Below, piece by piece: positions 1-32,128 of a stretch of DNA of 32,128 nt (positions are counted from its first letter, which is position 1; each line of letters opens with the position of its first letter). The stretch is from assembly GCA_947169745.1 (NCBI GenBank), contig CAMVQZ010000016.1:1-32128 (forward strand). The letters run 5' to 3'. Under the pieces are notes generated by a model that had not been told where the DNA came from, searched no databases, and saw only the letters and a program-made list of their open reading frames with translations. The position numbers and the translations under genes were made by a program. The DNA comes from an uncultured Clostridia bacterium (GTDB lineage Bacteria > Bacillota > Clostridia > Oscillospirales > Acutalibacteraceae).

Positions 1-251
1 TGCACCCGTGTTCGGTGCGTGCTCGCACTGAGCAATTCGCGTTATCGCTCGTTTACACTCGCTCTGTCGTGCGTACATAAACTACCGTCGCGCGGCATCC
101 GGCGCACACCGTCTCAGATAATACTCCCACCCTCCGCCGCCGCACCCCTCACAGGCTGCTTCTTGCGGCTGGGTTATTCTGGCTTCTACCATTTCACTCC
201 CCTGTCACTGAGCGCCTGTTTTCTCCCGGAATTATTTTGCAGCGTGAACGC
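1..251 (+). repeat. Intergenic repeat copy R1, about 251 bp, head end cut by window edge
   Basis: This is the first of two tandem copies. Positions 1-144 are identical to 252-395, after which the copies diverge. Three blocks are conserved in the family. The head contains a core at 38-79. A GC-rich block lies around 131-175. The tail, around 211-238, reads AGCGCC then a T-rich stretch and GAATTATTTT. A hairpin, GCAGCG-TGAA-CGCTGC at 239-254, marks the junction with the next copy. The open reading frame crossing it has no ribosome site or recognisable product and only reflects the repeat. Confidence 0.9.
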
Positions 252-514
252 TGCACCCGTGTTCGGTGCGTGCTCGCACTGAGCAATTCGCGTTATCGCT
301 CGTTTACACTCGCTCTGTCGTGCGTACATAAACTACCGTCGCGCGGCATCCGGCGCACACCGTCTCAGATAATACTCCCACCCTCCGCCGCCGCAGCCCT
401 CACGGGCTGCTACCTGCGGCTGGTTTACTTTGACTTCTGGCTTTTCAATCTTCTGACAGCAAGCGCCTTTTTATCCCAGAATTATTTTACACTAACCCGG
501 TGCGTGGTGGAAAA
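252..514 (+). repeat. Intergenic repeat copy R2, tandem with R1
   Basis: The copy begins with the same 144 bp as R1, with the core at 289-330. Its GC-rich block holds a perfect small hairpin, CAGCCC-TCAC-GGGCTG. The tail is at about 462-490. After the tail the sequence enters the start of a further unit (GGTGCGTG, 499-506) and breaks off just before the gtrA promoter at 521. Together R1 and R2 occupy the gene-free stretch 1-520; I see no gene there. Confidence 0.9.
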
Positions 515-520
515 ATGTAA

Positions 521-549
521 TTGACAATTCGGGTTATTTGGATTAAAAT
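521..549 (+). promoter_or_regulatory. Sigma-A-type promoter for the gtrA operon
   Basis: TTGACA (521-526), a 17-bp spacer and TAAAAT (544-549) form a near-consensus vegetative promoter. A second TATAAT overlaps at 549-554. It lies directly after the repeat pair and about 75 bp ahead of the first start codon. Confidence 0.75.
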
Positions 550-8200: not shown

Positions 8201-8735
8201 GCACGGACATATGACCGATGTGGGATATGATATGTATATGAAGCTTCTGGGACAGGCTGTGAGTGAGGCCAGGGGAGAAAAAATAAAACCGGTGGACAGC
8301 GACTGCGTTATTGATATACAGGAGGACGCTCATCTGCCGGAGGATTATATCAGCAATCTCAGCCACAGGCTGGAAATGTACCGCCGTATAGCAGATATAA
8401 AAAACAGCGAGGATGCCGGAGATGTTATAGATGAAATGATAGACAGATTCGGAGATCCTCCGGAGGATGCCGGCGCACTTGTAAATGTAGCTCTGATCAG
8501 AAGCAAGGCTCAGACCCTGGGGGTCAATGCTATAAGACAGGTGGACAGCCAGCTGAGGATATTCTTCCGGGAAATACGCTGCGAGGGTGCGGCTGATATC
8601 ATGGAAAACTCCGTAAGGCAGGGCTACAGGGCAAATCTTGATATGAGCGGCAAGCCCCACATAAGTGTGGCAATAAAAAGCGGCGAAACTCCCACAGAAG
8701 TCCTGAAGCATATTCTGGAGATCGGAAGAAGTTAA
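5271..8735 (+). CDS. mfd: Transcription-repair coupling factor
   Basis: A 1154-residue ATP-driven DNA translocase that removes RNA polymerase stalled at lesions and recruits UvrA. Domain order fits Mfd: a UvrB-like N-terminal half, a CarD-like RNA-polymerase-interacting domain at about 489-545 (GDFVVHSNHGIGQF), then the RecG-like helicase domains with Walker A GDVGFGKT (Lys 648), the DEEQ box at 743-746, SATPIPRTL, and the QLRGRVGRS motif VI region. The C-terminal TRCF domain follows. Length is normal. AAAGGG at 5264-5269 lies just ahead of the ATG. It may be read from the upstream glycosylation/pth promoter. No frameshift is seen. Confidence 0.98.
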   Translation: MKLLNDVLNKTEEYRTLEKAVGRGQTPAMATGLSGVHKAHLIYTMCTRLGRRALVLAADEIEAVRLCEDICAMGKKAVFYPSRDFTFREVAGVSGEFSHKRIGALFSFVCGSCDIIVACADAALQYTIPMDTLKKYTGVYRQGDEVSMEELVSVLEGCGFSRTDNVEGTGQYSVRGGILDIFIPGKAMPCRIEFWGDEIDTISEFDPETQRRTDPVEEFTITPSGELLIADREELAEKIEAKASALRGKKGAAAKEIMKKEAEAVRAGQMLTSIDKYYSLIYETPATLYDYFDDNEIVFVSEQPAQKDRVRAVMTQWSEDLEDYVKEGILCRGLDSFSMEWEYHLSALSQRDTVFIDNFTRGSCELPLRELVSFTAKQLSVWSGSLSVLCEELDGLVSRNTVCVILAGTKKNAGILCDELREKGYDAVEADENTEPGSGGLFVAPGSLSRGFEYPHAGFALITHGISLSAAKKSKKKKRKKGAIFALEDLSPGDFVVHSNHGIGQFMGVEKKEIHGIVKDYIIIRYAGGGSLFVPVTQLDMIAKYIGPKEETVVKLSRLGSDQWSKSKARVRKAVKDIADKMIKVYSERMKARGFAFSPDNEWQRDFEARFEYEETDDQIRCISEIKEDMEKVVPMDRLLCGDVGFGKTEVALRAAFKCVTDGKQCAILVPTTILAWQHYQTILRRFEGYPVNTELLSRFRTPKQQAEIIKKLRQGDIDIVVGTHRLVQKDIEFRDIGLVIIDEEQRFGVEQKENFKEKYSSVDILTLSATPIPRTLNMAVSGIRDMSSLEEAPQDRYPVQSYVLEYDDAVIHEAIRKELRRGGQVFYLFNRVEGIEEKAAAISKAVPEAVVGVGHGKMSEGELSDVWRRMLEQEINVLVSTTIIETGVDIPNANTLIIENSDRMGLSQLHQLRGRVGRSTRRAYAYFTFPRNKALSEISQKRLEAIREFTQFGSGFRIAMRDLEIRGAGDMLGAHQHGHMTDVGYDMYMKLLGQAVSEARGEKIKPVDSDCVIDIQEDAHLPEDYISNLSHRLEMYRRIADIKNSEDAGDVIDEMIDRFGDPPEDAGALVNVALIRSKAQTLGVNAIRQVDSQLRIFFREIRCEGAADIMENSVRQGYRANLDMSGKPHISVAIKSGETPTEVLKHILEIGRS

Positions 8736-8855
8736 GGAATAACTGAATAGTAATGGTGTCGCTTCTGTTATAGAAAGCTTATGAGTAATGGAAGTTCTTA
8801 CGGTTTTCAATTAGTTTGTAAATAAAAATGGAGTGGACTACCGGAAGTCAGAATA

Positions 8856-9018
8856 AACCGGCCGCAGGAAGCAGCCCGTGAGAGGTGCGGCGGAGGAGGG
8901 TGTGAGTGTTGTCCGGGGTAGTGAGCGCCGGATGCCGCTGCACGAAAGCTTGTTTATGAATAACATAGCGATTGTAAACGAGCGATTATACGAACATGGG
9001 TCCGGCGTCACGCCGGGC
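8856..9018 (-). repeat. Diverged repeat copy R3, inverted relative to R1/R2
   Basis: The complement matches the R1/R2 family: CCGCCGCAC...GGGCTGCTTCCTGCGGC, GCGGCATCCGGCGC, and ATCGCTCGTTTACA...CGCT occur in the family order, with many substitutions and no tail block. Its head end lies toward the prsA promoter and finishes in a hairpin, CCGGCG-TCA-CGCCGG (9002-9016), followed by T7. Gene-free stretch 8736-9113 otherwise holds only the promoter. Confidence 0.75.
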
Positions 9019-9029
9019 GCGGAATTTTT
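9002..9029 (+). terminator. Possible terminator formed by the end of R3
   Basis: A 6-bp all-G-C stem with a TCA loop (9002-9016) precedes GCGCGGAA and then a run of seven T. The gap between stem and T-run is longer than ideal. No other terminator is visible after mfd, so this may end the upstream operon. Confidence 0.35.
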
Positions 9030-9041
9030 TTAAAATTTTTG

Positions 9042-11711: not shown

Positions 11712-11890
11712 TTAAGGCAACACCGCTGGGCGACCGCCTGACGGCTTTGCACGCCATCTTTCGGCAAATTTTCCGTCATTTTCGCCAAAATCTCCTTGAA
11801 ATACGTCAGTATTCCTGCGTCGATTTTGTCAATCTGACAAAAAATTATGCTCGAAATCTGACGCGCAATCTCTGTGCGGTGTTGCCTTAA
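11712..11890. mobile_element. MITE-like element with 15-bp terminal inverted repeats
   Basis: A 179-bp element with perfect ends TTAAGGCAACACCGC (11712-11726) and its complement (11876-11890). It encodes no transposase. The outermost bases are TTAA on both sides, so a TA or TTAA target duplication cannot be told apart from the inverted repeat. It lies 4 bp after the stop of the papain-like gene. An internal hairpin TTTTGTCA-ATC-TGACAAAA lies at 11824-11842. It was probably moved by a transposase encoded elsewhere; which family is unknown. Confidence 0.75.
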
Positions 11891-12389
11891 GACTGAAAAA
11901 ATAATAATGGGTGTGTGGCAATGGTAAGTTTTTGCGCGTCTTGGTTGTTTATTTCATCCGACAGTCTGTGCAGTTGCGTGCCTTCGGCACGGAGCCAAAA
12001 AGGTGAACCAGGGTTCCCCCCTCTGGAAATCCCTCCTCCTTTTTTAGTGCCGAACATACTGACAGCTGACAAAAGTGCGTATGTACCTCTGCTTCTATGA
12101 GCAGAAATCAAGGAACATAAGCAACCCTTGTTATCATATAAACCGACAGCTCCAAATATGTTCTACCCGGCTCATACCATGCTGAATCAGCCATACAAAC
12201 TACCCGACAAACACAGCAGGGGTTCAAGGAGGGGAATTACAAAAAGGGGCAACCTCAAAGGGGGCGCAGCCCCATTTTTGGGTCCCCGTTTTGTCCCGTG
12301 CCGGAGGCACGCACCGCAGAGACTATCGCCTCAGAAAACAAACCATATACGCACAGACTACCCCCATAACAATACCTCAATACCTATCG
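11891..12389. other. Gene-free region with GC-rich hairpins
   Basis: No convincing gene is seen. It holds two similar 6-bp-stem hairpins, CGTGCC-TTC-GGCACG (11977-11991) and CGTGCC-GGA-GGCACG (12297-12311), and GGGGC-GCA-GCCCC (12261-12273) followed by ATTTTTG, which resembles a terminator. Open reading frames here lack ribosome sites and known motifs. The region resembles decayed intergenic repeat material. Confidence 0.55.
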
Positions 12390-12498
12390 CCGCGCGACGA
12401 GAGTATATGTACGCACGACAGAGCGAATGGAATGAGCGATAACGCGAACACGCTCAGTGCGAGCACGCACCGAGGCACGCACCGAGGCACGCACCGCC
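12390..12498 (-). repeat. Partial repeat copy R4, inverted
   Basis: On the minus strand it reads as the family head: the GGTGCGTGCTCGCACTGAGC segment, CGCGTTATCGCTC, CGCTCTGTCGTGCGTACATA, then CGTCGCGCGGC. The core is at 12406-12446. The head hairpin GTGCG-AGCA-CGCAC is at 12457-12470. Two exact 12-bp units, CGAGGCACGCAC (12471-12482 and 12483-12494), follow. The GC-rich and tail blocks are absent. It ends 5 bp before the ATPase -35 box. Confidence 0.85.
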
Positions 12499-12502
12499 TG
12501 TA

Positions 12503-12531
12503 TTGACTTATGGATGAATTTATGGTTTAAT
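12503..12531 (+). promoter_or_regulatory. Promoter for the V-type ATPase operon
   Basis: TTGACT (12503-12508), a 17-bp spacer and TTTAAT (12526-12531), each 5 of 6 to consensus. The predicted start is about 30 bp upstream of the first GTG codon. Confidence 0.7.
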
Positions 12532-31153: not shown

Positions 31154-31193
31154 AAAAGCACTCCCTGTATCAGACCTGGGGAGTGCTTTTTTT
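31154..31193. terminator. Shared terminator of tsaD and tetR
   Basis: AAAAGCACTCCC (31154-31165) pairs with GGGAGTGCTTTT (31179-31190), followed by three more T on the plus strand. On the minus strand the stem opens inside the last codons of tetR and ends in a T-rich tract, so it can serve both convergent units. Confidence 0.88.
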
Positions 31194-31760
31194 GTTATCC
31201 GGATTCATATAACGGGCGACCGCCAGACGCTGACAATCGCTTACCAGATTTTCAATATGTGCCGTAATGGTCTCAGGCGGCTCCTTCATTCCGCCGGTGA
31301 CCCACGAGATAATACTGCCGGTTATTCCGTAAGCGAAAAATCTTGCAATAAACTGCTTATCCTCCTCGGATACCACATAGTTGCCGGAAACATCCTCAAT
31401 AACAGATACAAATACATTTGAGCTGACTTTATGCAGGTATTCCCGGAATTCCTCGCTATATGAAGTCCTCAGTGCATTCGCATAGAATCTGGAGCCGTCC
31501 CTTATGGTATGAAGCAGGGTCAGAAGCTTATCTGTCCAGGTGTCAAAGCTCAGTCCGTCTACAAACGGCTCTATGGCTTCATTATAGAATATCCAGTTCA
31601 GAAGCTCGTATTTGTCCTGAAAATGATAATAAAATGTCTGCCGGTTCAGGCCGCATTCTGAGGTGATATCAGATACTGTTATTTTTGCAAAAGGCTTTCT
31701 CTCCATCAGCTCTTTAAAGCCCCGGGCTATGGAATTTTTTGTTTTTATAGAATCAGACAT
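31170..31760 (-). CDS. TetR/AcrR-family regulator (DhaS-like C-terminal domain)
   Basis: A 196-residue one-component regulator. The N-terminal helix-turn-helix is ITVSDITSECGLNRQTFYYHFQDKYELLNWIF, typical of TetR proteins; the C-terminal ligand domain resembles the TetR_C_8 type seen in DhaS-like proteins. ATG 31760 follows GGAGG 5 bp upstream; the frame extends upstream without a ribosome site. Its target is not visible: neighbours upstream are beyond the window edge. The promoter region has a near-palindrome (TGATAC-N7-GTATGA) that could be its own operator. Confidence 0.88.
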   Translation of the reverse strand: MSDSIKTKNSIARGFKELMERKPFAKITVSDITSECGLNRQTFYYHFQDKYELLNWIFYNEAIEPFVDGLSFDTWTDKLLTLLHTIRDGSRFYANALRTSYSEEFREYLHKVSSNVFVSVIEDVSGNYVVSEEDKQFIARFFAYGITGSIISWVTGGMKEPPETITAHIENLVSDCQRLAVARYMNPDNKKSTPQV

Positions 31761-31793
31761 AACAACCTCCGTAACAAATAATATCATACCTCC

Positions 31794-31821
31794 ATTGTAT
31801 CACATTTTCCCCATTTGTAAA
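31794..31821 (-). promoter_or_regulatory. Promoter for tetR, with possible operator
   Basis: On the minus strand, TTTACA (31816-31821), a 16-bp spacer and TACAAT (31794-31799). A near-palindrome overlaps the -10 and start region. Repeat copy R5 begins 5 bp beyond the -35 box. Confidence 0.6.
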
Positions 31822-31825
31822 CCAG

Positions 31826-32063
31826 GCAGCGTGACGCTGCACCCATGTTCGCGTTATCGCTCGTTTACACTCGCTCTGTCGTGCGTACATATACTTTCGT
31901 GGCGCGGCATCCGGCGCGCAGTACCTCAGACAATACTCCCGCCCTCCGCCGCCGCAGCCCTTACGGGCTGCTTCTTGCGGCTGTTATATTCGGACTTAAA
32001 GAGTTTCACTTCCCTGACAGTAAGCGCCTGTTTTCTCCCAGAATTATTTTACACTAACGACGC
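31826..32063 (+). repeat. Intergenic repeat copy R5
   Basis: A full copy in the same orientation as R1 and R2. It begins with hairpin GCAGCG-TGA-CGCTGC (31826-31840); the core is at 31850-31891; the GC-rich block carries CAGCCC-TTAC-GGGCTG; the tail is at about 32023-32050. It lacks a 25-bp stretch present in R1 and R2 between TTC and GCG in the head. No gene is seen in 31822-32128; the frame crossing it is a by-product of the repeat. Confidence 0.9.
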
Positions 32064-32128
32064 TGCACCCATGTTCGCGTTATCGCTCGTTTACACTCGC
32101 TCTGTCGTGCGTACATATACTTTCGTGG
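32064..32128 (+). repeat. Intergenic repeat copy R6, cut by the window edge
   Basis: The 65 bases are identical to the start of R5 (31838-31902), giving a tandem period of 226 bp. The core is at 32076-32117. The array may continue beyond the window. Confidence 0.88.

Follow-up and report, generated by a model that had tools for sequence, protein, structure and literature searches.

Identical heads and divergent tails in adjacent copies of a promoter-facing clostridial repeat

Two tandem copies of an intergenic repeat, R1 and R2, open the 32,128-nucleotide stretch of DNA analyzed here (the window), which is contig C16 in full from the 177-contig draft genome (2.53 Mb) of an uncultured Clostridia bacterium. 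The two copies have the same head and different tails. The preliminary description had reported a 144-bp exact match between R1 and R2 followed by divergence, as well as identity of R5 and R6 over 65 visible bases. Direct comparison confirmed both. R1 and R2 repeat with a period of 251 and match exactly at 1–144 and 252–395 (144 bp), with frequent mismatches beyond; the windowed identity is 1.00 up to ∼135 and then 0.90, 0.85, 0.70, 0.65, 0.80 and 0.38. R5 and R6 (period 226) match exactly at 31833–31902 and 32059–32128, a run of 70 bp that is stopped by the contig end. A repeat unit is interrupted at both ends of the window. Because the contig end forms the left border of R1, the 144-bp identity is a lower bound and may reach further left. 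The features at the two ends, including a tail that resembles a copy on contig C40, are as follows.

1–251, plus strand: R1, left-truncated by the contig end, with a hairpin-module remnant (1–14), the core (36–103) and the tail (104–251)
15–28, plus strand: hairpin of R1, GTGCG-TGCT-CGCAC, followed by AATTCGCG
239–254, plus strand: hairpin module at the R1/R2 junction, GCAGCGTGAACGCTGC, assigned from its sequence
252–496, plus strand: R2, identical to R1 at 252–395, with a C40-type tail at 396–496 that terminates in ..TTATTTTACACTAAC
380–395, plus strand: putative recombination breakpoint in R2, ACCCTCCGCCGCCGCA (R1 equivalent 129–144), where R1-like sequence gives way to C40-like sequence
31829–32058, plus strand: R5, hairpin GGCAGCGTGACGCTGC
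32059–32128, plus strand: R6, identical to R5 over 70 nt and truncated by the contig end

Architecture of the repeat family

R1 and R2 belong to a modular, hairpin-headed, genus-specific intergenic repeat that occurs in short tandem arrays. A 20-base core pattern matches the own genome (∼2.5 Mb) 247 times at up to 3 mismatches, and its reversed control gives 0 matches. The own-genome sample, taken as the stretches around these copies, comprises ∼100 arrays or single copies with 147 units. Each unit consists of up to four hairpin modules, a core of ∼68 bases and usually a T1 tail, which is found in 117 of the 147 units; other tails are rare. The hairpin modules GCAGCGTGACGCTGC, CCAGCGTCGACGCTGG, GTGCGTGCTCGCAC, GCACAGTGCCTGTGC and GCGGAGTGCCTCCGC all have a TTCG end. 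Tandem periods cluster at 88–90 and 224–255 bases, and 96 of 100 arrays or single copies use one strand only, orientation being compared within the cluster. The T2 form (3/147 units), in which heads of inverted orientation occupy both ends, is a minority form. A cmscan search of the window yielded 0 Rfam matches above the gathering score, and no published description of the family was found in the open-access literature.

The hairpin was analyzed in a relative, G026, using the 79 distinct 25-mers that precede every RATTCGCG, chosen regardless of pairing. Each of six fixed stem positions is paired in 91–97% of cases, compared with ∼40–47% after shuffling, and one position alternates among A-T, C-G and G-C. 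The stem positions thus remain paired with varying bases, so that the hairpin structure is retained even as the underlying sequence differs.

Between loci, the core is 0.87–0.89 identical and the tail 0.29–0.46. As its conservation thus exceeds that of the tail also in comparisons between loci, the core is subject, to some extent, to family-wide constraint or preferential homogenization. In the core (e.g. window 46–64), two CGCTC boxes flank a spacer that takes the forms GTTACAC, ATTCCAT, ACTCCGT, GCTCCGC and GCTTACGC across all species, and its outer two bases stay complementary despite this variation, as if a tiny stem or dyad were kept. The T1 tail is richer in C than in G on the displayed strand (e.g. 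window 104–160), up to 0.64 versus 0.15 in one 15-base bin, and could serve as a Rho-loading site in RNA transcribed in the direction opposite to the promoter that the repeat faces.

Origin of the shared head and the different tails

A 28-mer diagnostic of the R1/R2 head matches the genome exactly at 101 and 352 only; the closest sequence elsewhere differs from it at 2 positions. Because this head variant is private to the R1/R2 locus, the identity is local, and a head type common to the whole genome was ruled out as its source. The tails have relatives elsewhere. The R2 tail is 99% identical to the C40 copy, with 118 bases exact, and the copy closest to the R1 tail lies on contig C108 (93%). 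The C40 and C108 copies have a common head type that differs from the R1/R2 head. Heads therefore group R1 with R2 and C40 with C108, whereas tails group R1 with C108 and R2 with C40, and such crossed grouping is the pattern expected under recombination. Along R2, 13 consecutive sites informative between R1 and C40 are R1-like and the sites that follow are C40-like, except for one that resembles neither. The single switch has a maximum descent of 28/41, which was reached in 0 of 100,000 permutations, a value uncorrected for the choice of C40 as the best-fitting parent among ∼60 aligned copies. R2 is a mosaic that combines the R1 head with a C40-type tail and, judged from this sequence pattern, is probably a recombination product with its breakpoint in the 380–395 segment.

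The heads probably became identical by local exchange between alike heads, which left the tails beyond the breakpoint different. Two older units with different tails would have stood adjacent, and their similar heads would then have undergone homologous recombination, either as unequal crossing-over or as gene conversion from one head to its neighbor. The heads would thereby have become identical, and the tails past the breakpoint would have remained distinct. The same process could expand arrays so that the inner units are identical in full while the final tail differs, as seen on contig C49. Unequal exchange and gene conversion fit R1/R2 equally, and the contig end cuts the array, hiding its full unit count and the left neighbor of R1.

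A recent tandem duplication of the whole unit, after which a relaxed tail diverged and a constrained head did not, would agree with the higher conservation of the core than of the tail across loci and with the fully identical duplicates on contigs C106 and C53. However, divergence in R1/R2 begins at a single point after 144 identical bases, and each of the two tails closely matches a different locus (99 and 93%). Mutation after duplication would not recreate existing tail types, and the C40 match thus disfavors such a duplication, which we consider very unlikely. Selection on the head alone, another suggestion of the preliminary description, is not needed, given the sharp switch and the close relatives of both tails on C108 and C40.

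Hairpin modules could instead have served as mobile or site-specific joints, in the manner of REP/IS200-like elements, that connected head and tail without homologous recombination. The modules vary in order and number (up to 4 per head), each with its TTCG end, and their stems change sequence yet keep pairing. The R1/R2 breakpoint nevertheless lies within the tail, away from any hairpin/TTCG boundary, and no Y1 transposase was found in the own draft genome; joining by modules is accordingly given little credence.

The draft state of the genome bears on a further explanation, in which the assembly merged or wrongly joined near-identical heads at the contig end. Contig C16 begins and ends inside the repeat, the family accounts for ∼40 of the contig ends examined, and a short-read assembler can over-collapse a 144-bp identical stretch. 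Against such an artifact, the R2 switch is interior, and the parents have a common stretch of ∼16 bp there, too short for the usual graph join. Similar tandem arrays also lie mid-contig (C49 and C53), and the R1/R2 head is private to its locus. An assembly artifact is therefore improbable. A duplicate produced by De Bruijn graph overlap was rejected because contig-end overlaps vary from 21 to 53 with no fixed k.

Array homogenization is also seen at some other loci. The 70-nt head is identical in 10 of 41 adjacent pairs, compared with 10 of 9801 between-locus pairs. Contig C49 contains three 225-bp units, of which copies 2 and 3 match exactly over 231 bp before the last tail diverges. On C106 and C53 and in most of C123 and C49, the compared unit is identical throughout. 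The majority of the remaining arrays consist of old copies that have diverged from end to end. The earlier proposal that heads are more alike within a locus than between loci thus applies to about a quarter of adjacent pairs and is not a general rule. Similarly, of the proposed local gene conversion or duplication limited to the head, the local homogenization is borne out by the private head and the single R2 switch, but most other arrays do not display the pattern. Given this unit-wide identity on C106, on C53 and, for the most part, on C123 and C49, the R1/R2 pattern represents an instance and not a law.

Position of the hairpin end relative to promoters

The remaining repeat copies and the promoter-like sequences of the window are located as follows.

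521–549, plus strand: promoter-like TTGACA-17-TAAAAT, immediately right of R2 and before the gene at 625
8830–9013, minus strand: third copy, inverted, between an mfd-like gene (ends at 8735) and the ORF at 9039
12389–12471, minus strand: head-only copy, hairpin end toward TTGACT-17-TTTAAT (12503–12531), upstream of a V-ATPase gene cluster
R5 left flank, minus strand: outward promoter TTTACA-16-TACAAT, which would serve the TetR-like gene 31170–31787

Among the outer left (hairpin) ends of arrays (n = 82), 80% meet an outward sigma-A-like promoter, scored as a TTGACA/TATAAT-like −35/−10 pair (score ≥9), compared with 8.8% of shuffles; for array-internal ends, used as a control, the values are 5 and 2.7%. 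The −35 box begins a median of ∼15 bases from the hairpin. By codon-based scoring of the flanks, the head-side gene reads away from the repeat in 64 of 65 scored arrays (64:1), and in 53:0 at a stricter threshold, with 23 away and 21 toward on the tail side. In relatives, the head-side away:toward counts are 22:4 (G017), 10:2 (G025), 9:5 (G008) and 6:15 (G026), all from small samples in which some G017 loci overlap one array. The promoter-facing orientation is thus near-absolute in the own species, common to some relatives and absent in one.

The promoter-facing hairpin end, seen across ∼100 arrays of the own genome (G000) and in the window at 12389–12531 and 31800–31850, was the most unexpected feature encountered. 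The arrays of G026 (L088–L099 and L144–L163) contain extra hairpin modules, CCAAAGGCGGAGCCTTTGG and TTAAGGGCGGAGCCCTTAA, and, in contrast to those of the own species, are mainly located at the 3′ ends of genes. Beside the head-only copy, window 12463–12496 contains a perfect 12-bp tandem, GCACGCACCGAG (2.8 copies), that resembles iterated hairpin arms. An intergenic block at 11712–11890 starts with GGCAACACCGC and ends with GCGGTGTTGCC, which form terminal inverted repeats, and is possibly a different mobile element.

The hairpin end may be maintained or targeted at its position because of the promoter. It is conceivable, though doubtful, that the repeat is addressed to promoters: its arrays would be placed or retained with the hairpin end a short distance upstream of the −35 box, and array length and module order, altered by recombination, could tune or insulate a substantial fraction of the promoters in the cell. 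An intrinsic terminator directed toward the neighboring gene was rejected as a general role, as no general T-run is present (the T fraction is 0.18 over outward positions 1–6 and 0.27 over the six that follow); single loci with a T-run terminator exist, such as window 9010–9035 and L090.

According to the usual description, small repeats in bacteria lie where insertions are least harmful. In contrast, this family has a fixed promoter-ward orientation at nearly every scored locus of one species, in arrays that apparently recombine. If the position is functional, gain or loss of array length would give rise to variation in gene expression among rumen and gut clostridia; if it reflects targeting, an unrecognized mobilizer would exist. 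The family also helps to explain the fragmentation of such draft genomes into many contigs.

Distribution and relation to known repeat systems

A head sequence model detected the family in 38 of 64 genomes of the genus and, marginally (E 4e-4), in 1 of 196 other genomes sampled from the order. Per genome, the copy number varies between zero and at least 72, the scoring being capped. The exact core of the own species had no match in a set of genome contigs from which the own records were excluded. A looser scan with a core pattern produced matches in relatives along with chance matches in unrelated taxa; the named relatives with matches are clostridial MAGs, including the isolates Lapin-005__bin22, RUG573 and RUG669. 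PF01797 (Y1_Tnp/RAYT) is scattered in the genus and gave 0 matches in the 177-contig draft of the own genome despite hundreds of repeat copies. Mobilization by a RAYT was ruled out on the basis of this lack of Y1_Tnp in the draft.

By analogy, the family may work like BIME or BOX repeats, without a RAYT transposase. It resembles MITEs such as Correia elements in being short, non-coding and high in copy number, and the minority T2 form has inverted heads at both ends. In contrast to MITEs, most units are without terminal inverted repeats, and neither a target duplication nor a partner transposase was found.

The BIMEs and REPs of enterobacteria and pseudomonads are RAYT-linked, species-specific palindromic mosaic repeats that occupy hundreds of intergenic sites and undergo complementary stem changes (PMC2817692). 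The present family is similarly made up of high-copy extragenic palindromes in composite arrays, with stems kept by complementary changes. It differs in that no Y1/RAYT protein was found in the own draft genome, that array units keep one orientation whereas BIME palindromic units alternate, and that a conserved RATTCGCG, without GTAG, lies 3′ of a hairpin whose end faces promoters.

The BOX element of Streptococcus pneumoniae is a composite small interspersed repeat of modules with tandem inner units, and convergent gene pairs of the pneumococcus have an excess of BOX, RUP and IS elements between them (PMC3049150). The present family is likewise a modular composite with tandem inner units, an analogy drawn from architecture. 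It differs from BOX in its location, as its head ends face gene starts at a ratio of 64:1 and BOX is in excess between convergent genes.
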